Shown: in pieces, positions 1 to 15,163 of the stretch
How positions within the stretch are numbered: the stretch's first letter is position 1
How the letters are laid out: each line of letters begins with the position of its first letter
DNA from: Actinomycetota bacterium
Lineage (GTDB): Bacteria > Actinomycetota > AC-67
Assembly: GCA_040905475.1 (NCBI GenBank)
Contig: JBBDRM010000068.1
Span: forward strand, 1 to 35,688
Direction: 5' to 3'
DNA length: 35,688 nucleotides
Notes under the pieces: model-generated
Databases searched by the model: none
Told to the model about the DNA's origin: nothing
Seen by the model: only the letters and a program-made list of their open reading frames with translations
Program-made: the position numbers and the translations under genes

Positions 1-292
1 TCACGAGGATGTCGATCGAGCCGAAGTTCTTCACGGCGTCGGCGATGATCCCCTCGGCCTGGTCCCACTTCGACACGTCGCCGTAGTTGGCGACGGCCCC
101 ACCGCCCCCGGCCTCGATCTCCTTCACCACCTGGGTGGCCGGGTCGGTGTCGCTTCCGCGGCCGTTCACGTCGACGCCGGCGTCGTTGATGACCACCTTG
201 GCGCCCTCCTTCGCCAGCTCCAGCGCGATCCCGCGACCGATCCCGCGGCCCGACCCCGTGACGACGGCGACCTTTCCATCGAGAAGACCCAT
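1..292 (-). CDS. SDR-family oxidoreductase, N-terminal part (runs off the left edge)
   Basis: About 97 N-terminal residues of a classical short-chain dehydrogenase/reductase, an NAD(P)-dependent alcohol/ketone oxidoreductase. The Rossmann glycine motif TGSGRGIG follows KVAVVTG near residues 9-19, then an acidic-strand end (VVIND) and the DVS element around residue 73. The catalytic Tyr-x3-Lys lies beyond the window. The start is ATG at 292, preceded on the minus strand by AGGAGG (about 301-306). The residues after VVIND, with a glycine-rich insertion before the ATQVVKEIEAGGG helix, resemble multifunctional-enzyme-type (hydroxyacyl-CoA/HSD17B4-like) SDRs, but that is inference from a fragment. 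It is divergent from the HDO gene at 377, so the two share an 84-base promoter region. Family is certain; substrate is unknown. Confidence 0.9.
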   Translation of the reverse strand, partial: MGLLDGKVAVVTGSGRGIGRGIALELAKEGAKVVINDAGVDVNGRGSDTDPATQVVKEIEAGGGGAVANYGDVSKWDQAEGIIADAVKNFGSIDILV

Positions 293-376: not shown

Positions 377-1066
377 ATGACTCTCGACGCCGAGCGGGTG
401 CACAAGGAGCTCACCGAGGTCATGAACTCGGTGTGGTTCGAAGGGGGGCGGCCGTTCCTGGAGGACTTCGCCGACGGCAAGGTCCCCAAGGACAAGCTCG
501 CCCGTTTCGCGCCGTCGTACTGCTTCCAGGTCGACAACTTCAAGCGCTGCGTGGCCGCGGTCTACGCGCAGGCCGAGCCGCGCGACGTGCGGGAGCTCTT
601 GCTGGAGAACCTGTGGGAGGAGCACGGCGAGGGGTTGCCCGAGCGTGATCACGCCGAGCTGGTCGCGCGTTTCGGACGGGCGCTGGGCGCCGACATCGAT
701 AGTCCCTACGACCTCGAGCCGATCCCCGAGAGCCGGCAGTGGATCGACCGGATCCTCGCGATCTGCGCGAACGAGCACTTCGTCGTCGGTCTCGCCGCGC
801 TGGCTTACGGCATCGAGGCCCGGACACGGACGATGGCGTTCCTCGGCGCGCTGTACCGCGACAAGTACGGCTTGGCCGAGCAAGACCTCGAGTTCTTCTT
901 CATGCATCTCGAGGCCGACGAGGAGCACGCCGGCCGCGCGATCGAGCTGGTCGGGCGCTACTGCACCACTGAGGAGCTGCTCGAGCGCTCGAAGTGGGCG
1001 GTGGGCGAGGTGCTTGACGCGACCCGGGTCGTCGCGGAGGGGATGGAGCGCATCTGCAGTGGGTGA
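377..1066 (+). CDS. Heme-oxygenase-like diiron oxidase/oxygenase (HDO; TenA/PqqC/CADD-like)
   Basis: A 229-residue all-helical protein of the heme-oxygenase-like superfamily (iron-containing redox enzymes related to PqqC and CADD). The C-terminal metal motif H177-x3-D181-x2-H184 has the spacing of the CADD diiron site. E85-x6-H92 and E147 (in YGIEART) can supply the other ligands, so a di-metal oxygen-activating centre is likely; no TenA-type catalytic Cys is obvious. The start is ATG 377, because AAGGAGG lies just upstream (365-371); a longer reading from 341 would place the ribosome site inside the gene. The stop overlaps the GTG of the lipoate-ligase-like gene by 8 bases, indicating translational coupling. 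Substrate is unknown. HDO members catalyse N-oxidation, C-C cleavage or cofactor assembly, so any specific role here is speculation. Confidence 0.8.
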   Translation: MTLDAERVHKELTEVMNSVWFEGGRPFLEDFADGKVPKDKLARFAPSYCFQVDNFKRCVAAVYAQAEPRDVRELLLENLWEEHGEGLPERDHAELVARFGRALGADIDSPYDLEPIPESRQWIDRILAICANEHFVVGLAALAYGIEARTRTMAFLGALYRDKYGLAEQDLEFFFMHLEADEEHAGRAIELVGRYCTTEELLERSKWAVGEVLDATRVVAEGMERICSG

Positions 1067-2156
1067 TCGCTGGCGCTTCATCGACGTCGGAAAGACCGAG
1101 GCCCTCGCGGCCTACGGTCGCCTGCCCGCGATCGCGGCGTCGGTCGTCCAGGGCGGACCCGAAGTGCTCATGACGATGATCTGGGCGAAGGGCCATCTGA
1201 CGGTCGGCTGGTTCGACGATGTGGATTCGGCGATCGATCTCGACGCCGCGCGCGAGGTGGGGATCGACGTGTTCCGGCGCCCGATCTGGGGCGGCGGTAC
1301 CGCGTTCTACGACACCGAGGCGGTCGCGGTCTGGTCCTGGATCATGCGCGACGACCGGTTCCCGACCCTCGACGAAGCGTTGAACCATTTCCGGCCCGTG
1401 ATGGAGAAAGCGCTTTCCGATCTCGGGCTCGGCGAAGCGCATTTCGAGGGGTCCTCCGACATCCGTTGGCGTGACCGGAAGCTCGGTACGTGCATCACGC
1501 AGTCGGTGCTCGGCACCAAGGTGGTCGGCGGGTTCCTGAACCTGAAACGACCCGACCTCGAGATGTACCGGCGTGTCGCGCGCGTCCCGGAGGAGAAGTT
1601 CGCCGACAAAGTGATCAAGGACATCGTCGAGTACATCGTCACGCCGGACGACATCCGAGGCCGGTCCCTCTCCTACGAGGAACTTCGGGACGCGATCGCG
1701 ACGGCGACCCGCGAGGTCGCGGGACTCGAGCTCGATCCGTCGCCGTTCACGGCCGACGAGTCGGGGATCGTCCAGCAGTTCGTGGACTCGGTGACGTCGG
1801 AGGACTTCATCCGCCGGATCTCCTCCGGGCGCTTCCGTGCCGAGGCGCCGACGGGCACGAAGGTCGGTTTCGCGAACGTGAAAGGGAAGAAGCTCGTGCG
1901 TGCAGGCGTGGCACTCGACGATCGGGGGAGCATCGTGCGGGCGCTCGTCGCCGGCGACATGCACGTCTCGCCCCCGGAAGCGATCGACGGCGTCGCCGCG
2001 GCACTCGCCGGAGCCGACGTCGCCGACCGCGAAGAGCTTCTCCAGCGCGTCACGACCGTGTTCGCCGGGATCGAGCAGCCCGACGCCGCGGCGGGGATCA
2101 CGCCGAACGACATCGTCGAGGCCGTCCTGAAGGCCGCGAAGGAGGCGACCGCATGA
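1059..2156 (+). CDS. Lipoate-protein ligase A family protein with C-terminal accessory domain
   Basis: 365 residues of the BPL/LplA/LipB cofactor-transferase family. Around residues 73-85 the signature RRPIWGGGTAFYD matches the RR-x2-GGG-x3-H/YD lipoyl-AMP binding loop, and K141 in DRKLGTC sits where LplA places its catalytic lysine. Residues from about 270 (GFANVKGKKLVRAGVALDD) form the small domain that bacterial LplA enzymes carry at the C-terminus. The family adenylates lipoate and transfers it to lysines of E2 or GcvH proteins; octanoyl transfer is also possible. The GTG start at 1059 is inferred from the 8-base overlap with the HDO stop and an upstream GGAGGGGA. No lipoyl-domain substrate gene lies in the window, and neighbours are an HDO enzyme and an M20 hydrolase, so a role other than routine lipoylation is open. 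Confidence 0.8.
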   Translation: MGDRWRFIDVGKTEALAAYGRLPAIAASVVQGGPEVLMTMIWAKGHLTVGWFDDVDSAIDLDAAREVGIDVFRRPIWGGGTAFYDTEAVAVWSWIMRDDRFPTLDEALNHFRPVMEKALSDLGLGEAHFEGSSDIRWRDRKLGTCITQSVLGTKVVGGFLNLKRPDLEMYRRVARVPEEKFADKVIKDIVEYIVTPDDIRGRSLSYEELRDAIATATREVAGLELDPSPFTADESGIVQQFVDSVTSEDFIRRISSGRFRAEAPTGTKVGFANVKGKKLVRAGVALDDRGSIVRALVAGDMHVSPPEAIDGVAAALAGADVADREELLQRVTTVFAGIEQPDAAAGITPNDIVEAVLKAAKEATA

Positions 2157-3484
2157 GCGACCTCACGGCCGAAACCACCGAGCTCCTTCAGCAGATGATC
2201 CGCAACGGCTGCGTGAACGACGGGACGCCGGGTTCTGGGCAGGAGGTCCGAAACGCAGACGTGCTCGAGTCCTTCCTCGACGGCGCGGGCCTGGACATGC
2301 AGCGGTTCGAGGCCGTGTCGGGCCGCCCGAGCCTGGTGGCGCGCATGGAGGGCACCGAGCCGGATGCGCCGTCGCTGATGCTGATGGGACACACCGACGT
2401 CGTGCCGGTGAACCCAGACGGATGGACGCGGGATCCGTTCGGCGGCGAGCTCGTCGACGGCGAGGTGTGGGGGCGCGGGGCGGTCGACATGCTGAACCTA
2501 ACCGCGTCGATGGCGGTCGCGATTCGAGAGCTCGCCCACAGCGGCTTCAAACCCAAGGGAACGCTGATCTATCTCGCGGTTCCCGACGAGGAGGCCGCGG
2601 GAACGTACGGCGCCAAGTGGCTCGTCGACAACGAGCCCGACGCGGTGCGCTGCGACTACGTGCTCACCGAGATGGGCGGCTTCCGCTTCGCCGGTCAAGG
2701 CACGCCGAAGGTTCCGGTCATGGTCGCCGAGAAGGGCACCTACTGGTGCAAGATCCGCGTGAAAGGAACGCCGGGGCATGCCTCGATGCCGTTCCGGACC
2801 GACAACGCGCTGGTGAAGGCGGCGGAGATCGTGCAGCGCCTCGCGTCCTTCCAGCCCGAGCCGGTCATCCACGAAACCTGGCGCCGGTTCGTCGAACAGA
2901 TGGGATTCCCCCCCGAGATGAAAGAGTCGCTGCTCGACCCGGCGAAGGTGCGAGCGGTTGCCGGCGAGCTGCCCGACCTCGGGATGGCGCGGATGATCCA
3001 CGCTTGCACGCACACGACCTTCGCACCGACCGTGCTCCACGGCGGCGTGAAGGGCAACGTGATCCCCGACTCGGTCGAGATGCAGGTCGACATCCGGACG
3101 CTTCCGGGGCAGACCGCGGAGGACGTGCACGCGATGCTCCGCGAGGCCCTCGGTGAGTACTACGACATGATCGAGATCGATCCGACCAGCGCGATGGAAG
3201 CGAGCGCATCGCCGGTGGATTCGCCTCTGTGGGACACGCTGACCAGTCACACGCGCCGGCTCTCGGGCGCCGAGACCGTGCCGTTCATCATCGTGGGCGC
3301 CACCGATGCTCGGTTCTTCCGGAAGGTCGGCGCGACCTGCTACGGCTACGGGCTGTTCAGTGAGCGGATCTCGTTCGGCCAGTTCGCCTCGATGTTCCAC
3401 GGCGACGACGAACGGGTCGACACCGAGTCGCTGGGCTTGACGACCGAGCTCTGGGGGTCGGTCGTGCACGACTTCCTGGGGTAG
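2153..3484 (+). CDS. M20-family metallohydrolase (ArgE/DapE/ACY1/CPG2 type)
   Basis: 443 residues of the M20 peptidase/amidohydrolase family, cytoplasmic two-zinc enzymes that cleave N-acyl amino acids, dipeptides or related amides. The zinc-site residues are visible in order: H80-x-D82 in GHTDVVPV, bridging D112 in GRGAVDM, general base and ligand E146-E147 in VPDEEAAG, a later Glu in LTEMGG, and His in SMFHGDDER near the C-terminus. The dimerisation lid domain with GTPGHASMP lies about residues 200-330. ATG 2153 overlaps the preceding TGA in an ATGA junction, so expression is coupled to the lipoate-ligase-like gene. The physiological amide is not deducible. Given its neighbour, cleavage of a lipoyl or acyl amide is conceivable but unsupported. 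Length and residues are normal for an active enzyme. Confidence 0.9.
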   Translation: MSDLTAETTELLQQMIRNGCVNDGTPGSGQEVRNADVLESFLDGAGLDMQRFEAVSGRPSLVARMEGTEPDAPSLMLMGHTDVVPVNPDGWTRDPFGGELVDGEVWGRGAVDMLNLTASMAVAIRELAHSGFKPKGTLIYLAVPDEEAAGTYGAKWLVDNEPDAVRCDYVLTEMGGFRFAGQGTPKVPVMVAEKGTYWCKIRVKGTPGHASMPFRTDNALVKAAEIVQRLASFQPEPVIHETWRRFVEQMGFPPEMKESLLDPAKVRAVAGELPDLGMARMIHACTHTTFAPTVLHGGVKGNVIPDSVEMQVDIRTLPGQTAEDVHAMLREALGEYYDMIEIDPTSAMEASASPVDSPLWDTLTSHTRRLSGAETVPFIIVGATDARFFRKVGATCYGYGLFSERISFGQFASMFHGDDERVDTESLGLTTELWGSVVHDFLG

Positions 3485-3486
3485 CG

Positions 3487-4401
3487 ATGCGCTTCGGCTT
3501 GCTCATCCCGCAGGAAGGGGCTCCCTTCAAGGCCGTCCTCGAGCACGCCCGGCTCGCCGACGTGCTCGGCTTCGACTCGGTGTGGGTCGAGGACCATCTC
3601 CGCGTGATCGCGGTGCCGCCGGGCAGCCCGGCCTACGAGGGGTGGACGACGCTCACCGGACTGCTCGCCGGAACCGAACGGATCAAAGCCGGGCCGCTCG
3701 TGCTCGCCGAGGGTTTCCGGAATCCGGCCTGGCTCGCGAACGCGGCTGCGACGCTCGACCACATGAGCGACGGCCGGCTGATCCTCGGGATCGGTGCCGG
3801 CGGCTACGAGGCCGAGTTCCACTCCTACGGGTACGAGTGGCTCGAGGCCGCGGACCGGGCCGAGCGGCTCGCCGAGGCGCTCGAGGTGATCACCGGGATG
3901 TGGGAGCGACGCCCGTTCCGGGGGCGCTGGTACCGAGCCGACGGCTCTGCGGACTGCCCCCAGCCCCTCCAGCAGCCGCGGCCACCGATCTGGATCGGCG
4001 GGCGCGGGAACTCGCTGTTGCGCGTTGCCGCGCGCTTCGCCGACTCGTGGAACGCTCCGCTGCTCACCCCCGAGGAGGTCGCCGAACGCGCCGAGACGCT
4101 GCGCGGGTACTGCGAGGCCGAAGGCCGCCCGATGCCGGAGATCTCGTATTACGGGCCCGTGTGGGTCGACACCGACGAGGAGCGCATGGCCCGGCGGCTC
4201 GAGCGTGCGCACGCGAGCGAGAACCGCAACGTCCGCCTCTACGCGCGGGTGGCGATCAGCGGCACGCCCGAGCAAGCCGTCGCTCGCCTCCGCGAGTACG
4301 AGAAGATCGGAGTCACCCACTTCGTGTGCCACTTCGGACGCGCCGACGTGACCTCGGGGACCGAGGCGTTCGCGAAGACGATCCTCCCCGCCTTCCGGTA
4401 G
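3487..4401 (+). CDS. LLM-class (luciferase-like) oxidoreductase, probably F420-dependent
   Basis: 304 residues of the bacterial luciferase-like TIM-barrel family. The N-terminus MRFGLLIPQ, the SVWVEDHL strand, the TERIKAGPLV segment and DHMSDGRLILGIGAGG near residues 90-105 are characteristic; the last is the cofactor phosphate-binding region of F420-dependent family members. The family includes F420-dependent dehydrogenases and reductases and FMNH2 monooxygenases. In an actinobacterial context without a flavin reductase gene alongside, F420 is the better guess. ATG 3487 starts two bases after the M20 stop, so this is the last gene of the HDO operon. A 6-bp stem-loop follows the stop (4413-4429). 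Substrate is unknown; with HDO and M20 enzymes it may act in breakdown or tailoring of a nitrogen-containing compound, which is inference. Confidence 0.88.
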   Translation: MRFGLLIPQEGAPFKAVLEHARLADVLGFDSVWVEDHLRVIAVPPGSPAYEGWTTLTGLLAGTERIKAGPLVLAEGFRNPAWLANAAATLDHMSDGRLILGIGAGGYEAEFHSYGYEWLEAADRAERLAEALEVITGMWERRPFRGRWYRADGSADCPQPLQQPRPPIWIGGRGNSLLRVAARFADSWNAPLLTPEEVAERAETLRGYCEAEGRPMPEISYYGPVWVDTDEERMARRLERAHASENRNVRLYARVAISGTPEQAVARLREYEKIGVTHFVCHFGRADVTSGTEAFAKTILPAFR

Positions 4402-4445: not shown

Positions 4446-4625
4446 GTGGAAGGATCCGGCAGCCGACGCGCGCCCGGCGGGACGCCCAAAGGGCCCGCCG
4501 GCGGGCGACCGCGATGCTCGTTCTGCGGGCGCAAGCCCAAAGAAGTGCAGTGGATCTACGGCGGCTCGATGGTGGCCATCTGTGACGGCTGCACCCAGCG
4601 CTCACTCGACGAGATGTTGGCCTGA
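4446..4625 (+). CDS. Stand-alone ClpX-type C4 zinc-finger protein
   Basis: A 59-residue protein with a Gly/Pro/Arg-rich N-terminal 22 residues followed by CSFCGRKPKEV and, 17 residues after the first pair, CDGC. This is the four-cysteine zinc-binding fold at the N-terminus of ClpX, which recognises substrates and adaptors (CxxC, a conserved IYGG-like turn, then ICDGC). The AAA+ ATPase that follows in ClpX is absent. GTG 4446 is chosen because it has a -10 box at leaderless spacing and gives a compact protein. The stop overlaps the ATG of the hydrolase-cyclase by one base (TGATG), so the two are probably co-translated. A ClpP-independent adaptor or dimerisation module is possible; function is unknown, although similar small ClpX-finger proteins occur in actinobacteria. 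Confidence 0.7.
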   Translation: MEGSGSRRAPGGTPKGPAGGRPRCSFCGRKPKEVQWIYGGSMVAICDGCTQRSLDEMLA

Positions 4626-5953
4626 TGGCGATGCCCAAGACGCAGTACGCGAAGTCGGGCGACGTCTCGATCGCGTATCAGGTGGTCGGGGAGGGCCCGT
4701 TCGACCTCGTGATGGTCCCCGGCTTCGTGTCCCACGTCGAGATGGTCTGGGACATGCCCCTCGCGGCGCGCGTTCTCGAGCGGCTGGCGACGTTCTCGCG
4801 CCTGATCCTTTTCGACAAGCGCGGCACAGGGCTGTCCGATCCGGTGGTCGGCGCGCCGACGTTGGAAGAGCGGATGGACGACGTCCGTGCGGTGATGGAC
4901 GCTGCAGGATCCGAGCGTGCGGCGCTCCTCGGCGTCTCCGAAGGCGCCCCGATGTCCATCGTGTTCGGGGCGACCTATCCTCAGCGCACGACCGCCCTCG
5001 TCCTCTACGGGGGCATGGCCCGAACGACCGAAGCCGAGGACTACCCGTTCTCCGCGCCCGCCGACGCGCTGATGCAGTCCTCGATGGAGATGGCCGAGTA
5101 CATCGGCGAGGGCATCATGCTCGAGGTGATGGCGCCGACCATCGCCGACTTGCCCGGTGCACGCGACATGTTCATGCGCTTCCAGCGCTACGCCGCGACG
5201 CCCGCGATGATGGTTCAGATGTTCATGATGTTCCTCGACATCGACGTGCGCGCGATCCTGCCGACGCTTCACGTCCCGACACTCGTGCTGCACCGCCGGG
5301 GCGATCGCGCCGTGAACCGCCACGCGGCGAAGTGGATGGCAGACCGGATCGCCGGCGCGACGTACGTTGAGCTCCCGGGCATCGACCACATGCTCTTCGC
5401 GGGGGACGCGGACGCGCTCATCGACGAGGTCGAAGAGTTCCTCACCGGGGAGCGACGCGCGACGGAGATCGATCGCGTCCTCGCGACGGTGATGTTCACC
5501 GACATCGTCGGCTCGACCGAGAAGGCCTCGGCGCTCGGCGACACGCTGTGGCGCGAGGTGCTCGAGCGCCATCACACGCTCGTGACCCGCGAACTGGAAC
5601 GCTTCCGTGGTCGGGAAGTGAAGCAGCTCGGCGACGGCTTCCTCGCGACGTTCGACGGCCCGGCCCGAGCCATCCGGTGCGGGCTCGCGCTCGCGCAAGC
5701 CAGCCGGGAAGCCGGCCTCGAGATCCGGGTCGGCCTCCACACCGGCGAGGTCGAAGTGATGGGCGACGACGTGGGCGGCATCGCGGTGCACATCGCGGCG
5801 CGTGTCGGCGCCAAAGCGCAGACCGGCGAGGTTCTCGTGTCGAGCACCGTCAAGGACCTGGTGGCCGGGTCCGGTATCGCCTTCTCCGAGCGCGGCACAC
5901 ACACGCTCAAAGGCATCCCCGACGAGTGGCGCCTGTTCGCCGTCCAGACCTAG
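4625..5953 (+). CDS. Alpha/beta hydrolase fused to a class III adenylate/guanylate cyclase domain
   Basis: 442 residues in two parts. Residues 1-275 are an alpha/beta hydrolase: nucleophile S105 in GVSEG, D227 in HRRGDRAV and H255 in GIDHMLF form the predicted triad. Residues 283-442 are a class III cyclase homology domain: metal aspartates D293 (FTDIVGST) and D337 (LGDGF), purine-specifying pair K333 and D382, and transition-state R393. The usual Asn at position 389 (VNxAAR) is His here (VHIAAR). The arrangement is that of mycobacterial Rv1900c/LipJ. It would couple binding or hydrolysis of a small ester to cyclic-nucleotide production. No membrane segment is seen. The start overlaps the zinc-finger stop by one base. 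The domains are secure; whether the cyclase is fully active is uncertain because of the Asn-to-His change. Confidence 0.88.
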   Translation: MAMPKTQYAKSGDVSIAYQVVGEGPFDLVMVPGFVSHVEMVWDMPLAARVLERLATFSRLILFDKRGTGLSDPVVGAPTLEERMDDVRAVMDAAGSERAALLGVSEGAPMSIVFGATYPQRTTALVLYGGMARTTEAEDYPFSAPADALMQSSMEMAEYIGEGIMLEVMAPTIADLPGARDMFMRFQRYAATPAMMVQMFMMFLDIDVRAILPTLHVPTLVLHRRGDRAVNRHAAKWMADRIAGATYVELPGIDHMLFAGDADALIDEVEEFLTGERRATEIDRVLATVMFTDIVGSTEKASALGDTLWREVLERHHTLVTRELERFRGREVKQLGDGFLATFDGPARAIRCGLALAQASREAGLEIRVGLHTGEVEVMGDDVGGIAVHIAARVGAKAQTGEVLVSSTVKDLVAGSGIAFSERGTHTLKGIPDEWRLFAVQT

Positions 5954-5992: not shown

Positions 5993-6001
5993 TTGAGCAC
6001 C

Positions 6002-7180
6002 GTGACTGACGCCGCCGTCATCATCTCGGCCGTCCGTACCCCGATCGGAGAGGCCGGACGCTCGCTCGCGACCGTGCCGGCCTGGGACCTGGGGATCCTC
6101 GTCGCCGAGGAGGCGATCGTTCGTGCGGGCATCGACCCGGCGACCTTCGACGACGTGATCTTCGGCGAGACGATCGGCGGCGGCGGGAACATCGGTCGGT
6201 TCGTGGGCCTCGCGGCCGGCGTCCCGCAGGATGTCCCCGGCATGTCGGTGATCCGCGCATGCGCCACGGGCCTCGAGGCGGTCACGCAGGCCGCGACCGC
6301 GATCTGGGCCGGCATAGGCGAGGCGTTCCTGACCGGCGGCGCCGAGAGCATGAGCCAGCAGCCGTGGCTGATGAAGAAACCGTCGAGCGCGTACCCGCGC
6401 CGGCCTCCCGAGATCGTCGTCGCCCCGCCGTCTCACCCTCCGGCCATGGCGTCGCTGTCGGTCGGGATCAACGTGGGCGAGTCTTCGGCCGAGCGCTTCG
6501 GGATCACCCGCGAGGATCAGGATCGTTGGGCGCTGCGCTCGCACCAGCGCGCGGTTCGAGCGATCGACGCGTGCGTCTTCGAGCCGGAGATCGTGGCCGT
6601 TCCCGTGACCCAGCGGAGGGGCGAGCCACGGATCTTCGACACCGACGAACGGCCGCGCCGCGACACCTCGCTCGAGAAGCTCGCGGCGCTGCCCCCCGCC
6701 TACGTCGAGGCCGGAACCGTGACCGCCGGAAATTCCTCCGGCATCAACGACGGCGCAGCATCGCTGGTCGTGACGAGCGCGAAGTGCGCCGAGCAACTCG
6801 GCCTCACGCCGCGCGCCGTGATCCGCGGATGGGCTTCGGCGGGCGTCGACCCGGCCTACACGGGAACCGGCCCGATCGAGGCCGTTCCCAAAGCTTTGAA
6901 GAGAGCGGGCATCGCGATCGACGATCTCGACGTCATCGAGATCAACGAAGCGTTCGCCGCCCAGACCATCGCGTGCGTGCGCGAGCTCGGGTTGAACCCA
7001 GAAAAGGTCAACCCCAACGGCGGAGCTATCGCGCTCGGTCATCCGGTCGGCGCGACCGGCGCGCGGCTCCTCGTGAGCCTGCTGCACGAGCTCGAGCGGA
7101 CCGGCGGCCGGTACGGCTGCGCCACCATGTGCGCCGGCGGCGGCCTGGGCTCGGCGGCGATCATCGAGAGGGTCGGATGA
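6002..7180 (+). CDS. Acetyl-CoA C-acyltransferase (thiolase)
   Basis: 392 residues, full-length thiolase. It cleaves 3-oxoacyl-CoA with CoA or runs the reverse condensation. Nucleophile C87 lies in [16 protein letters not shown] and [16 protein letters not shown] carry the catalytic Asn and His, and the second Cys is in MCAGGGLG near residue 380. All catalytic elements are canonical. GTG 6002 is preferred over TTG 5993 because of the leaderless-type promoter spacing; either changes only three residues. The stop overlaps the aldehyde dehydrogenase ATG (ATGA). As first gene of an operon with ALDH, HyuA, HyuB and a second thiolase, it probably takes part in degradation of a 3-oxoacyl-CoA intermediate. 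Chain-length preference cannot be read from sequence. Confidence 0.92.
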
Positions 7181-8613
7181 CGACGACCAAGCACTTCATC
7201 GCCGGCGATTGGCGCGCCGGCGCCGGTCCCACGATGACGGACCTCAACCCGTCCACCGGCAAGGCCGTCGCCGAGTTCCCCATCGGCACCGCCGAGGAGG
7301 TCGACGCCGCGGTCCGGGCCGCGCGCAACGCGTTCGACGGCGGCTGGCGAGACGCCACCCCGACCGTTCGCCGGCGGCTGCTGCTCAAGCTCGCGGAGCT
7401 GGTCGCCGGTCAAGCGCAGGAGCTCGGCCGGATCGCGACCGAGGACATGGGGATGCCCTGGGTGTTCACGCACGGCGAAGCGCTCTTCACCGCCGAGTAC
7501 GTCGAGTACTACGCAGGGTGGGCCGACAAGCTCGAAGGCGCGACGATCCCGTTGAGCGCGGCGAACACGTTCGACTACACCATCCATGAGCCGCGGGGCG
7601 TCGTCGCCGCGATCGTGCCGTGGAACTCGCCGCTGTCGCTCGCGCTCTGGCGCTTGGCGCCGGCGCTCGCCGCCGGCAACACCGTGGTCGTCAAGCCGTC
7701 GGAGCTGGCGCCGTTGCCGATCCTCAAGCTCATGGACCTCATCGCCGAGGCGGGGTTCCCGCCGGGCGTGGTCAACTGCGTCACGGGATCCGGCTCCGAG
7801 ACCGGCGCGCCGCTCGTCGAGCACCCCGGCGTGAACGTCGTCGCGTTCACCGGCTCGACCGCCACGGGGCGCGGGGTCGCCGAGGCCGCGGGACGACGCC
7901 TCGTCCCGGCCTCGCTCGAGCTCGGCGGCAAGTCGGCCAACATCGTGTTCGCCGATGCCGACCTCGACGCCGCGGCCGTCCAGGCGTGCGTCGGCTGCTT
8001 CGTGAACACCGGACAGCAGTGCATCGCCGGGAGCCGCTTGCTCGTCCAGGGATCGATCCACGACGACTTCATGGCCAAGGTCACTGCGTTCGCGCGAACC
8101 TTCGCCGTGGGCGATCCCATGGAGCCGACGACCCAGATGGGTCCACTGATCAGCGCGCCACAGCTCGAACGCGTGCTGGGCTTCGTCGAAGATGCCCGGA
8201 CGACGACGACGGTGGCGCTCGGCGGCGAGCGGCTCGGCGGCGACCTCGCCGACGGCTACTTCGTGCCGCCGACGGTGGTGACCGGCGTGCGGAACGACAT
8301 GCGGATCGCGCGAGAGGAGATCTTCGGTCCCGTGCTCAGCGTTATCCCGTTCCGCGACGAGGCCGAGGCGGTCGCGATCGCCAACGACACCGATTACGGG
8401 CTGGCGGGGGGGGTCTGGACCAACGACTTGAGCCGCGCCCATCGCGTGGCGCGAGCCATCCAGGCCGGGACGGTCTGGGTCAACGCCTGGCTCGCGGTGA
8501 ACGCGCAGGCGCCGTTCGGGGGATACAAGGCGTCGGGGCTCGGACGTGAAGGTGGGCGCGAGGCGCTCGACGTATATCTGCAGACGAAGAACGTGTACGT
8601 TCAGCTCCACTGA
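7177..8613 (+). CDS. NAD(P)-dependent aldehyde dehydrogenase
   Basis: 478 residues of the ALDH superfamily, oxidising an aldehyde to a carboxylic acid. Catalytic C282 is in GQQCIAGSR and the general base E248 in LELGGKS; N150 in the PWN motif stabilises the oxyanion, FTGST (around residue 225) forms the nucleotide-binding loop and EEIFGPV is the conserved C-terminal motif. The catalytic Cys is preceded by GQQ as in broad-specificity and betaine/2-hydroxymuconic types. ATG 7177 overlaps the thiolase stop by four bases. HyuA follows 15 bases later after GAGGGAGGG. Its aldehyde is unknown; in this operon it could feed an acid to CoA chemistry or oxidise an aldehyde made upstream of the HyuAB step. 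Confidence 0.93.
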   Translation: MTTTKHFIAGDWRAGAGPTMTDLNPSTGKAVAEFPIGTAEEVDAAVRAARNAFDGGWRDATPTVRRRLLLKLAELVAGQAQELGRIATEDMGMPWVFTHGEALFTAEYVEYYAGWADKLEGATIPLSAANTFDYTIHEPRGVVAAIVPWNSPLSLALWRLAPALAAGNTVVVKPSELAPLPILKLMDLIAEAGFPPGVVNCVTGSGSETGAPLVEHPGVNVVAFTGSTATGRGVAEAAGRRLVPASLELGGKSANIVFADADLDAAAVQACVGCFVNTGQQCIAGSRLLVQGSIHDDFMAKVTAFARTFAVGDPMEPTTQMGPLISAPQLERVLGFVEDARTTTTVALGGERLGGDLADGYFVPPTVVTGVRNDMRIAREEIFGPVLSVIPFRDEAEAVAIANDTDYGLAGGVWTNDLSRAHRVARAIQAGTVWVNAWLAVNAQAPFGGYKASGLGREGGREALDVYLQTKNVYVQLH

Positions 8614-8628
8614 GGGAGGGTTCGGGGG

Positions 8629-10734
8629 ATGGGCTACCGGGTTGGCATAGACGTCGGCGGAACCTTTACCGATTTCCTCGTCGTGGAGCCCGACGGGTCG
8701 TTCGCGCTATGGAAGAACCCGACGACGCCCTCGGACCAATCGATCGGGGTGATGGAAGGCATCGAGCAGCTGGCCGGCCAGCGCGATCTTTCGTTGAAGG
8801 CGTTCCTCGGGAAGACCGATCTGATCATCCACGGCACGACGACGGCGGACAACACGATGATCGAGTCGACCGGCGCGAAGACCGGGCTGCTCGTCACCAA
8901 AGGCCGTCGCGACGAGATCGAGCTGCGTCGCGGATACCGCGAGAACATCTGGGACCCGAGTGCGACGGCGCCGCCGCAGCTGGTGCCGCGTCGCTACCGG
9001 CTGACGCTCGGCGAGCGGCTCGACTATCAGGGCAACGTGCTTTCACCGCTGAACGATGACGAGATCCGCGCACAGGTGAAGCGGCTCAAGTCCGCCGGCG
9101 TCACCTCGGTCGCCGTGGTGCTGCTGTTCTCGTTCGTCAACCCGGCGCACGAGCAGCGGGTCGGCGAGATCCTGGCCGAAGAGTTCCCAGAGCTCGAGAT
9201 GGTCTCGCTGTCGCACCGCGTGCACCCGGCCGCGCCGGAGTTCGACCGCACGTCGACGACCGTCGTCAACGCGTACATCGGGCCGCGCGTGAAGCGCTAT
9301 CTCAACCACCTGATCGAGAAGCTCGCCGGCAACGGCTTCAAGCATCCGCTGCTCGTCATGCAGTCGAGTGGGGGTATCGCGGCGGCGCCGTCGGTGGCCG
9401 AACGGCCGATCGTCACGCTCGCGTCCGGCCCGGCCGGCGGCGTGATGGGAGCGTGCCGGGTCGCCGGCGAGGCCGGGATCGAGGACTTCATCTCCGTCGA
9501 CATGGGGGGCACGTCCTACGACGTCTGCCTGGTCAAGGGCGGAGAGCCGACGATCAAGTCGTTCTGGAACTGGGTTCACCGGTACCTGATCTCGCTGCCG
9601 ATGGTCGACGTGATCTCGATCGGCGCCGGAGGCGGTTCGATCGCGTCGGTCAAGGCCGGCGGCCTGCAGGTCGGCCCCGAGTCGGCCGGCGGCGATCCCG
9701 GCCCGATGTGCTACGGCCGCGGCGGCACCCGACCGACGGTGACGGACGCGAACCTCGTGCTCGGCTACTTGAACCCGGACGGCTTCGCCGGCGGCACCCT
9801 CCCGCTGAAGTCCGACGGGGTCGCCGAGGCGATCGAGGAGCAGATCGGAACGCCGCTCGGGATGGACGCGATCGAGGCGGCCTGGGGGATCCACTGGCTG
9901 ACGAACGCGCACATGAACCAGGCGATCGTCCGGGTCTCCGCCGAGCGCGGGAACGATCCCCGGACGTTCGCGCTGGTCGTCTTCGGCGGCAACGGCGCGG
10001 TGCACGCGCTCGCTCAAGCCGACGATCTCGGCATCCGCACGGTCTTGATCCCGCGCACCGCGCCGGCGTTCTCGGCGCTGGGTCTGCTCGTCGCCGATTA
10101 CCTGGTCGACAAGGTCCGCGCGACGCTCGTGACGACGGGAACCGTCGACCCCGGGAAGCTGGAGGAGATCTACAAAGGGATCGAGGACGAATCCGACGCG
10201 AGCGAGGCCGCGCACCTGGAAGACGTGTACGCCGCGCTCGAGAAGGAAGCCGACGAAGAGCTCTGGCAGGCGGGCGTGCCGACGAAGCGCTTCAAGCACC
10301 TGCGGTTCGCGCAGTGCCGGTACCCCGGCCAGACCTGGGATATCGACGTCCCCGTCGAGGGCAAGATCACGCTGAAGGAGCTCGCCGCGATCGCCGCGCG
10401 GTTCCACGAGATGCACTTCGAGGAGCACACCTACGACCGGCGCGACGAGGACGTGATGATCTCGGCGCTGCGGGTCCGCTCGCGGGCGCTCCTCGGTAAG
10501 CCGGAGCTGCGCAGGGTTCCGGGGTCGGCATCGACGCCGAGATCGTCGGGGACCCGGCAGGCGTACTTCGGAAGCGGCTTCGTCAAGGCCAAGCTGTTCG
10601 ACGGTCCGTCGATCCGTGCCGGGCAGAAGATCACCGGGCCCGCGATCATCGAGGAGCCGTTCACGACCGTGGTGGTACCGCCGAAATGGAGCGTGAAGCT
10701 CGACAGGCTCGGCAACTACGTGGCAACGAGGTAG
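8629..10734 (+). CDS. Hydantoinase A / 5-oxoprolinase / acetone carboxylase beta-type subunit (HyuA)
   Basis: 701 residues of the HyuA superfamily, the ATP-binding half of two-subunit enzymes that hydrolyse cyclic amides or carboxylate ketones through phosphorylated intermediates. The ASKHA-type phosphate loops are visible: DVGGTFTDFLVV at residues 8-19, GTTTADNTMIE near 83, SSGGI near 247, SGPAGGVMGA near 267 and VDMGGTSYDVCLV near 290. ATG 8629 has GAGGGAGGG upstream (8612-8620). HyuB follows after 13 bases, so the two form one complex as usual. Length is near that of acetone carboxylase AcxA and methylhydantoinase A. Nearby thiolases and an ALDH favour ketone or lactam catabolism over glutathione recycling, which is inference. 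No AcxC-like small subunit was found beside it. Confidence 0.9.
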   Translation: MGYRVGIDVGGTFTDFLVVEPDGSFALWKNPTTPSDQSIGVMEGIEQLAGQRDLSLKAFLGKTDLIIHGTTTADNTMIESTGAKTGLLVTKGRRDEIELRRGYRENIWDPSATAPPQLVPRRYRLTLGERLDYQGNVLSPLNDDEIRAQVKRLKSAGVTSVAVVLLFSFVNPAHEQRVGEILAEEFPELEMVSLSHRVHPAAPEFDRTSTTVVNAYIGPRVKRYLNHLIEKLAGNGFKHPLLVMQSSGGIAAAPSVAERPIVTLASGPAGGVMGACRVAGEAGIEDFISVDMGGTSYDVCLVKGGEPTIKSFWNWVHRYLISLPMVDVISIGAGGGSIASVKAGGLQVGPESAGGDPGPMCYGRGGTRPTVTDANLVLGYLNPDGFAGGTLPLKSDGVAEAIEEQIGTPLGMDAIEAAWGIHWLTNAHMNQAIVRVSAERGNDPRTFALVVFGGNGAVHALAQADDLGIRTVLIPRTAPAFSALGLLVADYLVDKVRATLVTTGTVDPGKLEEIYKGIEDESDASEAAHLEDVYAALEKEADEELWQAGVPTKRFKHLRFAQCRYPGQTWDIDVPVEGKITLKELAAIAARFHEMHFEEHTYDRRDEDVMISALRVRSRALLGKPELRRVPGSASTPRSSGTRQAYFGSGFVKAKLFDGPSIRAGQKITGPAIIEEPFTTVVVPPKWSVKLDRLGNYVATR

Positions 10735-10747
10735 AAGGAGCGCGCAT

Positions 10748-12583
10748 ATGGCCGTCGCGACCAAGAAGAAAGCTCCGAAGAAGCGTCCGGCGAAGCGCGT
10801 GCCGGTGGACCCGATAACCGCCGAGGTGATCCGCGGTGGGCTCGAGACGATCGCGTTCGAGATGGCGATCCACGTCTCCCGCACCGCGACGACGCCGATC
10901 CTCAATCAGTCGAACGAGCGCAACGCGACGATCATGGACTGGCAAGGGCGTCTGGCCGCGCTCTCGGTGGGCATCCCGCAGTTCATGCTGTCCTCGATGG
11001 GCCCGGTCCAGTTCGGGATCGAGTTCTTCGGGGCCGAGGGATTCCAGGACGGCGACGTCGTCGCGTGCAACGACCCGTACCACGGCGGGGGACACCTGCC
11101 CGACTGGAGCATCTTCTCGCCGGTGTTCTACGAGGGCGAGCTCGTGCTCTTCGCCTCGATCCAATGCCACCACGCCGACACCGCGGGTCAGACGCCCGGC
11201 GGCTACCCGGCCGACGCGATGGACATTTGGGCCGAGGGCTTCCGATGCCCGGTAGTGAAGCTCGTCGAAGGCGGCGTTGAGCGTAAGGACGTCATCTACC
11301 TGTTCCACACCAACAACCGCGTGCCCACCTACGAAGGCGATCTCCGCGCGCAGATCGGCGCGGCGCAGCTCGGCGCGAAGCGCTGCAAGGAGCTGATCGC
11401 CCAGTACGGCGTCGATGCGGTCAAGGGCGCGGTCGACTGGCTGCTCGAATTCTCGGAGCGACGCATGCGTGAGGAGATCTCCTCCTGGCCGGACGGCTCA
11501 TACGAGGCCGACGCGTACTTCGACCACGACGTTCGTGGGAACACCGACGTGAAGGTCCACGCCAAGGTCGACGTCAAGGGGGACGAGTTGGAGATCGACT
11601 TCACCGGCTCGGACGACCGGCCGTGGCTGCAGGCGTGGTCCACCCAGTGCAACACGCGCTCGATGACCTACGCGCAGCTGTGCTCGATGATCGACTCGAC
11701 GATCCCGCGCAACCAGGGTTTGTTCGCGCCGATCAAGATCCTGTATCCGGAGAACACGATCGTGAACCCGCCGGTCGGCAAGCCGGTGTCGATGGGGACG
11801 CATCATCCCGGGTGCGAGGTCTCCGAAGCGGTCGCGATGGCGTTGGCGAACGCCATCCCCGAGAAGTCCTGCCCGCAGGTCTACAAGGCCGCCATGCCGA
11901 CGGTGCTCTTCGGCATCAACCCGAAGTCGCAGAAGCTGTTCATCGACCACTCGGTCGACACGCAGTCGACCGCATCCGCGGCCGCGTACGGGACCGACGG
12001 CTGGGGCTGCGCGAACGCCGGATTCGGAAACCTGATCATGGCGACGGCCGAGATCAACGAGGCGATCTTCCCGGCGCGCCATCTCTCGAACGACCTGACG
12101 ACCGACACGGCCGGGCCCGGCAAGTGGCGCGGCCAGCCGGGCTCATTCTGGGTGAAGGAGTCGACCGCCGACTGCAGCCTTTACACCTTCGTCATGAGCA
12201 TGAAGTACACGTCGCGCGGGGTCGCCGGCGGCGAGAACGGGCCACCCGACAAGCTCGTCATCCGCGGCCCAAACGGGGAAGAGAAGCTCATCACCCACAC
12301 CGCCCTGTACGAGCCGCTCGGCGCCGGAACGCGGATCGAGTACCAGCGCGGCGGTGGCGGAGGGTGGGGCGATCCGCTCGACCGCGAGGCGGAGAAGGTT
12401 CGCGACGACGTGCTCGACGAGTACGTCAGCCGCGAGGCCGCCGAACGCGACTACGGCGTCGTCATGACCGGCGAGGCCGACGATTACTCGCTCGAGGTCG
12501 ACGCGGCGGCCACGAAAGCGTTGCGCAAGAAGATGCGGGCGGCACGCGCCAAGGCCAGGGGCGGGGATAAGGTGACGCCATGA
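10748..12583 (+). CDS. Hydantoinase B / acetone carboxylase alpha-type subunit (HyuB)
   Basis: 611 residues of the HyuB family, partner of HyuA. The conserved ITAEVIRGGLETIAFEM start lies near residue 24. It is followed by metal-site and core motifs CNDPYHGGGHLPD (around 104-116), SIQCHHADTAGQTPGG (around 137-152), the HHPGCEV segment near 352 and GGRGG-like PDKLVIRGPNG near 505. The C-terminus ends in a basic stretch. Unusually, residues 6-18 form a lysine/arginine-rich tail (KKKAPKKRPAKR) ahead of the domain. ATG 10748 follows AAGGAG. The stop overlaps the next thiolase ATG (ATGA). The function is shared with HyuA; which substrate, hydantoin, oxoproline or ketone, cannot be told from motifs. 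Confidence 0.9.
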   Translation: MAVATKKKAPKKRPAKRVPVDPITAEVIRGGLETIAFEMAIHVSRTATTPILNQSNERNATIMDWQGRLAALSVGIPQFMLSSMGPVQFGIEFFGAEGFQDGDVVACNDPYHGGGHLPDWSIFSPVFYEGELVLFASIQCHHADTAGQTPGGYPADAMDIWAEGFRCPVVKLVEGGVERKDVIYLFHTNNRVPTYEGDLRAQIGAAQLGAKRCKELIAQYGVDAVKGAVDWLLEFSERRMREEISSWPDGSYEADAYFDHDVRGNTDVKVHAKVDVKGDELEIDFTGSDDRPWLQAWSTQCNTRSMTYAQLCSMIDSTIPRNQGLFAPIKILYPENTIVNPPVGKPVSMGTHHPGCEVSEAVAMALANAIPEKSCPQVYKAAMPTVLFGINPKSQKLFIDHSVDTQSTASAAAYGTDGWGCANAGFGNLIMATAEINEAIFPARHLSNDLTTDTAGPGKWRGQPGSFWVKESTADCSLYTFVMSMKYTSRGVAGGENGPPDKLVIRGPNGEEKLITHTALYEPLGAGTRIEYQRGGGGGWGDPLDREAEKVRDDVLDEYVSREAAERDYGVVMTGEADDYSLEVDAAATKALRKKMRAARAKARGGDKVTP

Positions 12584-13749
12584 GCGAAGCGGTGATCGTC
12601 GGGGCGGTACGAAGCCCGATCGGCAAGAAGAACGGCAAGCTCTCCGGCACGCATCCGACGGATCTGCTCGGCATGGTCCTCAAGGCGCTGATCGAGCGTG
12701 CCGGCGTCGATCCGCTCCAGATCGACGACGTGATCGGCGGATGCGTGACGCAAACCGGCGAGCAGGGTGTCAACGTCACGCGCAACGCGTGGATCGCCGC
12801 GGGGCTGCCGTGGGACGTGCCGGCGACGAGCGTCGACCGCCAGTGCGGCTCCTCGATGCAGTCGGTCGCGTTCGCGGCGCAGGGCGTCATGGCCGGCGTC
12901 TACGACCTCGCGATCGGGTGCGGCGTCGAGGCGATGTCGCGGGTCGGGCTCGGCTCGAACGCGATCCAGCCGGGCTTCGCGTTCTCCGACGACTGGTTCG
13001 CGGCGGTCGGGGGCAACCAGAATCTCTACACGCAGTTCCAGGCCGCCCAAGAGATCGCCAGGGAGTTCGGGATCTCGCGGACCGACATGGACGAACAAGC
13101 CGCCGAGTCACACCGGCGTGCCGCGCAGGCGACCGACGATGGCCGGTTCCAGCGTGAGATCGTTCCGATCAAGGCGATGCAGGCCGACGGAAGCATCGAA
13201 GAGGTGACGACCGACGAGTGCATCCGACGCGGAACCACGGTCGAGCGCCTGGCAGCGCTGGCGCCGGTCCGCGAGGACAGTCCCGACATGACGCCGGGCA
13301 ACTCGTCTCCGATCTCCGACGGCGCGGCGGCGATCCTGGTCGCCAGCCGGGAGAAGGCGGAGCAGCTCGGTCTGAAGCCGCGCGCCCGCTTCAAGCACTT
13401 CGTGGTCGCGGCCACCGAACCGATCGTCATGCTCAAGGGGCCGATCCCGGCGACGCGCAAGCTGATGGATCGCACGGGCATCAAGCTCACCGACATCGAC
13501 CTGTTCGAGTGCAACGAGGCGATGGGGTCGATCGTGCCCATGTGGGAGAAGACGTTCGGCGTCCCGCACGACGTCGTCAACGTCAACGGCAGCGGGATCT
13601 CCCTCGGCCATCCGGTGGGTGCGAGCGGCGCTCGGATCATGACGACGCTGCTGCACGAGCTTGAGCGTTCCGGCGCGCGGACCGGGTTCCACACGATGTG
13701 TGAGGGGGGCGGGCAGGCGAATGCGATCGTCATCGAACGGCTGGACTGA
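12580..13749 (+). CDS. Acetyl-CoA C-acyltransferase (thiolase), variant active-site loop
   Basis: 389 residues, full-length thiolase coupled to HyuB by an ATGA overlap. C89 in DRQCGSSMQS is the nucleophile; SLGHPVGASGAR carries the catalytic His and MCEGGGQANAIVIER holds the second Cys. Two loops differ from the standard family: NEAFA reads NEAMGS, and the GGAIALGHP loop reads GSGISLGHP. Such changes sit next to the acyl pocket and fit a thiolase for a bulky or branched acyl chain, an inference from position only. Two thiolases in one operon suggest successive cleavages or distinct substrates. The DinB-like gene downstream begins inside its last 29 bases. Confidence 0.92.
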   Translation: MSEAVIVGAVRSPIGKKNGKLSGTHPTDLLGMVLKALIERAGVDPLQIDDVIGGCVTQTGEQGVNVTRNAWIAAGLPWDVPATSVDRQCGSSMQSVAFAAQGVMAGVYDLAIGCGVEAMSRVGLGSNAIQPGFAFSDDWFAAVGGNQNLYTQFQAAQEIAREFGISRTDMDEQAAESHRRAAQATDDGRFQREIVPIKAMQADGSIEEVTTDECIRRGTTVERLAALAPVREDSPDMTPGNSSPISDGAAAILVASREKAEQLGLKPRARFKHFVVAATEPIVMLKGPIPATRKLMDRTGIKLTDIDLFECNEAMGSIVPMWEKTFGVPHDVVNVNGSGISLGHPVGASGARIMTTLLHELERSGARTGFHTMCEGGGQANAIVIERLD

Positions 13750-14584
13750 GGTTCCCTCCGCGTCACACGGATCGGTCTTCGACTTCGACAAGGATCAGGT
13801 CCTGGCCGGCGTGAAGGCCCAGCGGGAGCGGACGGTCGCGCTGCTGCGCAGCATCTCCGAGGCGGACTGGGAGCGGATCATCGTGCCCCGGTGGCGCGTG
13901 CGCGAGGTCGCCGGTCACCTGGTTTCGAGCGATGAGGGAACGCTCACCGGGCGCCTCCTGACCGTCGGCTTCTCCAGGCGAGGCGACGAGGCGCTGTCGA
14001 AGATCGAGGTCTGGAACGACAAGCAGGCGGCACGCTGGGCAGACCGTCCGATCCCCGAGATCCTCAAAGGGCTCGAGGTGTGGGCCCGCCGGATCGAGCG
14101 GTTGAGCGGTGTGATCCCCGCCGGGCTCGCGCGACGCGTCATGCCGACGCCGTTCGGACGGGTCTCGCTGTCCTGGCTCGCGTCGCTCCGCATCTACGAC
14201 GAGTGGGTGCACTTGGAGGACCTGCGGCGGGTGTTCGGGATCCAGGCCGACGACGCGCCCCCTTCCGTCCTGCCGATCGCGCGCCAGATCCACGCCGGGA
14301 TCCCGGTCCAAACGTTCCCCAGGATCCCCGCCGACGCCTCGGGCAAGGTTTCGCTGGCGTTCAGTGACATCGACCTGCCGACGCTGGGGATCGATCTCGG
14401 GTTGCGGCGCTACGGCTACGGACTCGACGCCCCCGAGGCCCGGATCACGGCACCGACGGCGGCGCTCGCCATGGTCGCCGCCCGGCGCGACCCCTGGCAG
14501 GACGCCGAGGCTGCGGGTGCGCTCAAGGTCGAAGGGGATCGCAAGGCCGCAGACGCGTTACTCGGATCGCTCCTGCTCGTCTAG
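13721..14584 (+). CDS. MDMPI/DinB-like mycothiol-dependent enzyme family protein
   Basis: 287 residues resembling the maleylpyruvate-isomerase-type (TIGR03083) DinB four-helix proteins, many of which use mycothiol with a metal. The helix QRERTVALLRSISEADWE leads into P-x-W-x-V-x-E-V-A-G-H, whose His is the first expected metal ligand; a second helical metal site (YDEWVHLEDLRR) lies near residue 165. A C-terminal domain follows, with an SCP2-like beta pattern (SGKVSLAFSDID). ATG 13721 lies inside the thiolase end and has GAGGGGGGCGGG upstream; a far upstream start at 13661 would be mostly overlap. It is the last gene before a stem-loop. The reaction is unknown; the link to the operon suggests isomerisation or thiol-dependent processing of a pathway intermediate. 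Confidence 0.7.
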   Translation: MRSSSNGWTEVPSASHGSVFDFDKDQVLAGVKAQRERTVALLRSISEADWERIIVPRWRVREVAGHLVSSDEGTLTGRLLTVGFSRRGDEALSKIEVWNDKQAARWADRPIPEILKGLEVWARRIERLSGVIPAGLARRVMPTPFGRVSLSWLASLRIYDEWVHLEDLRRVFGIQADDAPPSVLPIARQIHAGIPVQTFPRIPADASGKVSLAFSDIDLPTLGIDLGLRRYGYGLDAPEARITAPTAALAMVAARRDPWQDAEAAGALKVEGDRKAADALLGSLLLV

Positions 14585-14586
14585 CT

Positions 14587-14604
14587 CCGGCCTCTCGGGG
14601 CCGG
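14587..14604 (+). terminator. Possible terminator stem-loop ending the HyuAB operon
   Basis: CCGGCC (14587-14592), loop TCTCGG and GGCCGG (14599-14604) form a perfect 6-bp stem directly after the stop codon. There is no T-run; the next -10 box is 15 bases on. Confidence 0.4.
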
Positions 14605-14619
14605 GCCGTTCGCGCGGGC

Positions 14620-14625
14620 TATCCT
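14620..14625 (+). promoter_or_regulatory. -10 box of predicted leaderless promoter (pilin-like protein)
   Basis: TATCCT ends 6 bases before GTG 14632 with no ribosome site between. It is identical to the hexamer at 4433. Confidence 0.5.
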
Positions 14626-14631
14626 GGCAGC

Positions 14632-15135
14632 GTGGACGCTGCCGCGCTGCAACGCCGTTTCCTCCTCGGGCCGCTGGTGGCTCTGGCGTTGCTCGGGCCC
14701 GCGGGGGACGTGCCCGGGCTGAACCCGCAGGCGTCGCCCATCGCGACGGGTTCGCCGACACCGCAGACCCCGGGGGAGATCGCGCGGACCGTGATCGTCG
14801 ACGCTCTCGAGGCTCAGCAGGTCTACTACGTCGACAACCTCTGGTTCGCCGCCGGTTCCGGAGGAGAGCTCGAGGTCCTTCGCTCCCTCGACCCAAGCAT
14901 CGCGTGGGGGACGGCCGTGATCGTTCAGGTCCCCGCGGAGGAGTTCGGGGAAAGCCCGGTCGTTGTACTGCAAGCGCCCTTGCCGGACGGTGCCTCGCTA
15001 TGCCTCGCGCTCGTCACGACGGAACTTGACGCGGGCCTCTGGTACGCCCGCGCGGCGACGGGCGCGAAGTGCCCGAAGGTACGCGCCGGGATGCGCGGCT
15101 GGGGCGCGGACGAGACGAGCTGGGGGCCGGCCTAG
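14632..15135 (+). CDS. Small exported protein resembling the soluble domain of actinobacterial type IV pilins
   Basis: 167 residues. Residues 9-27 form an N-terminal hydrophobic export or anchor segment (RRFLLGPLVALALLGPAGDV) after two Arg; a Thr/Pro/Ser-rich linker follows to about 45. The remaining part, from IARTVIVDALEAQQVYYVDN through a DPSIAWG turn and a late beta region with two Cys (SLCLALV and AKCPKV), looks like the globular domain of actinobacterial prepilins (helix, YYxDN, LxxLDPSxxW, Cys pair). The type III prepilin cleavage motif and hydrophobic alpha1-N helix are absent, so it is not expected to assemble as a pilus. The leaderless GTG start is supported by a -10 box. This is a fold guess by pattern; no pilus genes adjoin. 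Confidence 0.55.
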   Translation: MDAAALQRRFLLGPLVALALLGPAGDVPGLNPQASPIATGSPTPQTPGEIARTVIVDALEAQQVYYVDNLWFAAGSGGELEVLRSLDPSIAWGTAVIVQVPAEEFGESPVVVLQAPLPDGASLCLALVTTELDAGLWYARAATGAKCPKVRAGMRGWGADETSWGPA

Positions 15136-15163
15136 CCGTCGGCTTCTGTGCTCGCGCGTTCGA

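Follow-up and report, generated by a model that had tools for sequence, protein, structure and literature searches.

In a 35,688-nucleotide stretch of DNA from an uncultured soil actinobacterium (the window, which is contig C68 of a 4.24-Mb genome), a gene for a lipoate-protein ligase (LplA)-like enzyme follows, and overlaps, a gene for a heme oxygenase-like diiron oxidase (HDO). We found that the ligase-like protein belongs to a separate clade, with members in several actinobacterial families and on haloarchaeal plasmids, in which the RR-GG loop is altered and whose genes are encoded amid those of coenzyme A (CoA)-dependent catabolism. The known role of LplA, LipB and BirA is to attach cofactors to proteins. 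The enzyme described here probably came to serve degradation, and not the synthesis or attachment of lipoate, and we consider it quite likely that the clade as a whole serves CoA-dependent catabolism. The fuller picture, in which the ligase-like protein is a catabolic adenylating enzyme and the HDO is the oxidase of its pathway, has in our judgment an even chance of being correct. The families concerned are all known ones found in a new setting, and this is not a new kind of system.

A divergent clade of LplA-like proteins

The ligase-like gene (positions 1059 to 2156, plus strand; 365 amino acids, GTG start) encodes a two-domain protein, with an LplA-type catalytic domain (PF21948 LplA-B_cat, 8e-15; no match to PF03099) and an LplB-type C-terminal domain (NF053749, 4.2e-8, residues 274 to 359, below the curated cut-off). 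Its scores fall short of the equivalog cut-offs (38 bits versus 280 for TIGR00545 and 56 versus 550 for NF053751). A structure model of the protein matched LplA structures by Foldseek; this model and that of the HDO are weak, with mean pLDDT values of 67 and 58, respectively.

Homologs occur in other actinobacterial families (42 to 46% identity) and among haloarchaeal proteins (25 to 28% over nearly the full length), the haloarchaeal sampling consisting of plasmid records. Nineteen such sequences from Actinomycetota and haloarchaea form a monophyletic clade apart from 24 canonical LplA proteins, with SH-aLRT/UFBoot support of 98/98 (95.8/96 in an earlier tree with 10 members). At least three residues separate the arginine pair from the GG in all 19, whereas all 24 canonical proteins have two. 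The original prediction that the ligase keeps RR, GGG and Lys141 was correct as to these residues, but the loop of the window protein, RR-PIW-GGG, has one residue more than that of canonical LplA, and W, Y, A, F, V or S is found in this type of ligase where T or V normally stands. The arginine pair itself reads RV in one of the 19 members. The Asn that precedes Asp134 (the ND motif) in 22 of the 24 canonical proteins is missing from the entire clade; Asp134 and Lys141 are kept in every member, as is a conserved LplB-type domain, whose GD motif is shared with canonical LplA. Lys278 in that domain is likewise universal in the clade, versus 2 of 24 canonical proteins, and a KxxKL motif there further sets the clade apart from canonical LplA. 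Because the altered loop is the part that we take to hold the acyl-adenylate in LplA structures, we infer that the clade enzymes act on a changed substrate.

The genes that accompany the clade are largely of one kind. Most actinobacterial clade genes outside the window's class are closely followed by a short-chain dehydrogenase (SDR) gene (G133, G321, G501, G533, G568, G427, G521, G586 and G648, among which G321, G586 and G648 are of one genus and not independent). The SDR gene overlaps the clade gene by 4 bp in G133 and comes after a 1-bp gap in G321; the query for the SDR counts in this wider survey came from one clade cluster. In G219 the clade gene overlaps that of an Ltp2-like thiolase by 4 bp, together with genes for a ChsH2-like OB-fold protein, an enoyl-CoA hydratase and HyuA, and in G399 an aldehyde dehydrogenase gene is nearby. 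Acyl-CoA dehydrogenases are encoded in several clusters. The Haloterrigena gene sits between those for an enoyl-CoA hydratase and an SDR, amid acyl-CoA dehydrogenase, 3-hydroxyacyl-CoA dehydrogenase and CoA ligase genes, the Natrinema gene near MaoC, AMP-binding and HyuA/HyuB genes, and the Natronosalvus gene near AMP-binding and MaoC genes. An enoyl-CoA hydratase gene is directly adjacent in Haloterrigena and in two genomes of the window's own class (G003 and G004), and HyuA/HyuB genes lie close by in three separate settings (the window's class, G219 and Natrinema).

Around seven clade genes outside the class, CoA-type genes number 2.9 per 10 kb, compared with 0.3 in 24 control stretches placed at arbitrary fixed offsets in the same three actinobacterial genomes; the three actinobacterial clade members outside the class exceeded these controls (Mann-Whitney, P = 7e-4). 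Near canonical LplA genes, no CoA-type genes were found at four loci, nor at four further loci. Beta-oxidation-type core genes (dehydrogenase, hydratase, SDR, thiolase and CoA ligase) are thus linked to the clade more than by chance. As a separate observation, Haloterrigena plasmid pHTUR01 carries, at 15 to 48 kb (L148, L111), two clade ligase genes that differ from each other. They are part of a large catabolic island that also includes a branched-chain-amino-acid-type ATP-binding cassette transporter and beta-oxidation-type genes, and a similar island is present on Natronosalvus plasmid unnamed4.

Given that the ligase fold natively binds lipoate, the beta-oxidation-type genes and the three HyuA/HyuB settings might be explained by loci that degrade lipoate or biotin. 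The ligase would then activate the vitamin, beta-oxidation would shorten its side chain, HyuA/HyuB would open the cyclic urea or amide, and the M20 metallohydrolase and luciferase-like monooxygenase (LLM)-class oxidoreductase encoded downstream in the window would act on the fragments. However, the haloarchaeal clusters look more like those for degradation of steroids/terpenoids or aromatic acids (OB-fold/thiolase pairs, P450, PaaK), the M20 and LLM genes are not conserved, and our literature search found no gene precedent for vitamin degradation of this sort, which we regard as highly improbable here.

Ordinary lipoylation does not need the window's ligase-like gene, because the genome encodes an E2-LipB-LipA set on contig C73 and, on contig C162, a second LplA whose gene adjoins one for a LipS-like radical SAM protein (GcvH-like genes are also found there), and because, across the class, the contigs that carry the HDO/ligase pair showed no lipoyl domain. 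BirA is encoded on contig C12. It had originally been proposed that the locus modifies, releases or remakes a lipoyl-like cofactor; the lipoylation genes elsewhere, together with the altered loop of the clade and its CoA-catabolic setting, speak against such a role. The other original suggestion, that the genes break down an amide-linked molecule, fits better as regards breakdown, but the M20 enzyme is not a conserved partner.

Could the protein instead be a genuine lipoate- or octanoate-protein ligase with an unusual target? It has both the LplA catalytic and the LplB domains and keeps the catalytic lysine, and LplA-like ligases specific for a single partner protein do exist, for example, that for LbpA of sulfur oxidizers (PMC6067878). 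Such ligases, however, are encoded beside their lipoyl-binding protein, and none is present on the contigs here. The changes in the substrate loop and the ND motif, found throughout the clade, also tell against this explanation, as does the lipoylation machinery already present in the genome, and we find it distinctly unlikely. The C162 region (6719 to 15682) merits mention in its own right. Besides the second LplA and the LipS-like gene, it includes genes resembling those for electron-transfer flavoproteins, genes for two GcvH-like lipoate-binding proteins and a large gene that may encode an Hdr-type Fe-S protein. The set resembles lipoate machinery linked to an Hdr-like pathway, here in an actinobacterium, and one LipS/Hdr-associated LplA set seems to be present in the window's genome.

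The HDO and its pairing with the ligase-like gene

The HDO gene (positions 377 to 1066, plus strand; 229 amino acids) has an ATG start directly preceded by AAGGAGG, and its product matches PF14518 (Haem_oxygenas_2, 3e-26). By Foldseek, the model has the CADD/PqqC/BesC/UndA fold. The PDB matches are 4-aminobenzoate synthases; UndA, BesC, FlcD and PqqC have the HDO fold in common with the window protein, but none was a close sequence match when the PDB was searched. Six residues (E82, H92, E147, H177, D181 and H184) align with the metal ligands of CADD and are invariant in the orthologs, so that the protein is predicted to bind two metals and probably activates O2. CADD consumes its own Tyr27 and Lys152 (PMC11965152). 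At the corresponding positions the window-type HDO has Leu or Met (L28 in the window) and a gap, and its score against TIGR04305 is 77 bits, with a cut-off of 200. Because the Tyr and Lys are absent, the HDO presumably has another substrate, and we rejected it as a self-sacrificing para-aminobenzoate (pABA) synthase.

A CADD-type HDO paralog in the same genomes keeps both the Tyr and the Lys and, judging by these residues, is likely to be the pABA synthase of the window's genome. The two proteins are about 27% identical; the window HDO shares the CADD fold and all six ligands but has a longer loop between E82 and H92. In the window's genome, the paralog gene (contig C12, 17040 to 17711, plus strand; L074, also L075 and L076) is flanked by sdhA and sdhB, an unusual location if, as is probable, it encodes a pABA synthase. 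Since its closest solved relatives are 4-aminobenzoate synthases, the window HDO might yet be a second pABA synthase, or another cofactor-building HDO in an accidental neighborhood. Against this stand the missing Tyr and Lys, their retention in the other HDO of the genome and the conservation of the HDO/ligase pair within the class, and we judge the idea to be extremely improbable.

The class sample comprised five genomes from one family of uncultured soil Actinomycetota (the window's genome is G000; three relatives are metagenome-assembled genomes). The HDO and LplA-like genes are neighbors in all four class genomes that have either one (G000, G001, G003 and G004), which bears out the co-occurrence envisaged in the original prediction; the fifth, G002, has neither the HDO nor the LplA-like gene of the pair. 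Among the three relatives, identity to the window is 77 to 80% for the HDO and 60 to 62% for the ligase-like protein. The two genes overlap in G001, as they do in the window, and a divergent SDR gene precedes the HDO in all four pair-bearing genomes. A pattern scan of the genome contigs with the window's LplA-like protein gave no match, and the same scan with the HDO alignment returned the same three relatives only. The LplA-like gene of G003 (L035, 2049 to 3030) is broken, with its C-terminal part in another frame and about 30 codons missing, which may reflect a sequencing error or real decay.

In G001 the pair is followed by genes for a thiolase (72%), an aldehyde dehydrogenase (63%) and HyuA (80%). 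The same three follow one another at 5993 to 10734 of the window, after a stretch of M20, LLM, zinc-finger and LipJ-like genes, and HyuB is encoded next after HyuA. From this shared gene order we derive a conserved unit in which a divergent SDR gene is followed by those for the HDO, the ligase-like protein, the thiolase, the aldehyde dehydrogenase and HyuA. The conserved setting is a CoA-type catabolic locus, with HyuA/HyuB in the window.

The original prediction was of a four-gene operon of HDO, LplA-like, M20 and LLM genes. For the window this description is exact, in that the open reading frames are on one strand, the first three overlapping in turn by 8 and 4 bases and the fourth starting after a 2-base gap, and profile matches confirmed the family names. 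As a conserved set, only the HDO and LplA-like genes stay together. The M20 gene has unlinked orthologs (62 to 65%) in three relatives: in G003 and G004 they are on different contigs from the pair, and G002 lacks the pair; an LLM ortholog (59%) follows the LplA-like gene in G003, which with the window makes the only linked cases. We thus rejected a conserved operon of all four and, on linkage in the relatives, also the M20 enzyme as an amide-releasing partner of the ligase.

Beyond the class, HDO genes are present in 56 of 396 Actinomycetota genomes (the class included), and no LplA-like gene was found near them within the stretches examined outside the class. As far as searched, the window HDO is confined to the window's class. 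An HDO-like sequence on a Pantoea agglomerans plasmid (NZ_CP143422.1, 34753 to 35328), 27% identical to the window HDO, underlies a gene annotated as diaminobutyrate transaminase ectB.

The locus beyond the pair

The gene cluster extends past the LLM gene to about 13.7 kb of the window. At its left edge, the 5′ part of the SDR gene (1 to 292, minus strand; 72% to the G001 SDR by tblastn) diverges from the HDO gene. All further genes of the cluster are on the plus strand. Downstream of the pair lie those for an ArgE/DapE-like M20 metallohydrolase (2153 to 3484, 443 amino acids; Peptidase_M20 PF01546, 2.7e-29) and an F420-type LLM oxidoreductase (3487 to 4401, 304 amino acids; Bac_luciferase, 1.5e-51; TIGR03560, 1.7e-62, below cut-off), the latter being from a large paralog family, with about 34 matching stretches across the genome including its own. 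They are followed by genes for a small protein with a ClpX-type zinc finger (4446 to 4625; PF06689, 1.6e-8) and a LipJ-like alpha/beta hydrolase-adenylate cyclase fusion (4625 to 5953; NF058673, 2.9e-133, below cut-off), neither of which is in the G001 cluster; the former is probably an insertion. The cyclase part of the fusion, which the tiny zinc-finger gene precedes, is of class III.

Next come the genes for a first thiolase (5993 to 7180; TIGR01930, 5e-128), whose G001 ortholog is directly downstream of the LplA-like gene, and an aldehyde dehydrogenase (7177 to 8613; PF00171, 3e-177), with its ortholog at the same place in G001. HyuA (8629 to 10734; PF01968, 5e-88) has orthologs in G001, where the contig end cuts the gene, and in the G219 cluster (48%). 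HyuB (10748 to 12583; PF02538, 4e-129) and a second thiolase (12580 to 13749; PF00108, 2.7e-66) complete the cluster. Its core includes the thiolase, aldehyde dehydrogenase, HyuA/HyuB and divergent SDR; the M20, zinc-finger and LipJ-like genes are most likely later insertions and the LLM gene an optional part. Elsewhere in the window are two adjacent AcrB-type resistance-nodulation-division transporter genes (16104 to 19217 and 19696 to 22917, minus strand; PF00873), here in an actinobacterial genome, and a gene whose product has weak similarity to neutral/alkaline ceramidase (30460 to 31974; PF04734, below cut-off).

Proposed role and comparison with known systems

We tentatively suggest that the clade has been reused for acid activation (acyl-AMP to acyl-CoA) and that, in one class, a new HDO uses O2 on the same substrate; in this much detail, the suggestion is open to considerable doubt. 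In the broader picture that we favor, the ligase-like enzyme would most likely still use ATP to turn a carboxylic acid into its acyl-adenylate, in a remodeled acid pocket. Retained adenylation is proposed because Arg73, Asp134, Lys141 and the LplB-type domain are kept, this domain being needed for adenylation. The acyl group would then pass to CoA, or to another acceptor of a beta-oxidation-like pathway, rather than to a lysine of a lipoyl domain, and the SDR, hydratase, thiolase and aldehyde dehydrogenase would process the chain. The HyuA/HyuB pair, which uses ATP and is nearest to caprolactamase, may open an amide or have a ketone as its substrate, and the HDO, as a dimetal oxidase or oxygenase, would carry out one O2-dependent step on the same compound.

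The gene content, its conservation, the clade, the motif changes and the neighborhood are observed, whereas adenylation, the acceptor, the HDO reaction and the common substrate are inferred. Several points weigh against this scheme. The structure models are weak in the substrate loop and do not support an analysis of the pocket. In the members searched outside the class, no HDO gene adjoined that of the clade ligase, and within the class, the HDO and ligase genes of G003 and G004 are kept apart by an oppositely oriented enoyl-CoA hydratase gene, so that the two do not always form one operon. Moreover, several clade clusters encode AMP-binding CoA ligases, by which acid activation may already be covered; this weakens the case for a CoA ligase and leaves room for a role in acyl transfer. 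The clade might, indeed, have lost adenylation and act as an acyltransferase, amide synthetase or acyl hydrolase on acyl-CoA intermediates, as would suit both these AMP-binding ligases and the direct neighbors, which handle acyl-CoA (SDR, enoyl-CoA hydratase and thiolase); the related LipB, LipM and LipL are transferases. However, the LplB-type domain, which is absent from LipB/LipM transferases (PMC6067878), is kept in all clade members, and we think such a loss unlikely.

If the catabolic adenylating role is correct, a conserved branch of the LplA/LipB/BirA fold, placed amid genes for CoA catabolism in both bacteria and archaea, would represent a new use of the fold. It would also correct the automatic label for the clade, whose haloarchaeal members are entered as "lipoate--protein ligase family protein" or "hypothetical protein." To our knowledge, HDO enzymes described so far act mostly in biosynthesis, and an HDO tied to a catabolic cluster would widen that role. 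We found no paper describing the HDO/ligase pair or the clade in a literature search that left most subscription journals uncovered, and no precedent for an HDO with a lipoate ligase, for LplA with CoA catabolism or for biotin/lipoate degradation genes. The clade is directly testable, as the cultured haloarchaeon Haloterrigena turkmenica carries the gene (WP_012944908.1 and WP_012944923.1).

With regard to known systems, the best matches of the window's HyuA and HyuB are the caprolactamase models for CapAB (NF050156/NF050157), but their scores of 608 and 315 bits are below the cut-offs of 1000 that mark curated CapAB. The ligase-like protein shares its fold and domain order with canonical two-domain LplA and LplA plus LplB (TIGR00545, NF053750, NF053749 and PF21948); unlike them, it scores far below the NCBIfam cut-offs and has no lipoyl-domain partner nearby. 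The sLpl(AB)/LipS- and sHdr/LbpA-associated ligases are also LplA relatives that work outside central metabolism (PMC6067878, PMC10332631). Those ligases, however, have the canonical loop and sit with LbpA/GcvH-like genes and LipS1/LipS2 or Hdr genes, whereas the clade described here sits with genes of CoA catabolism.

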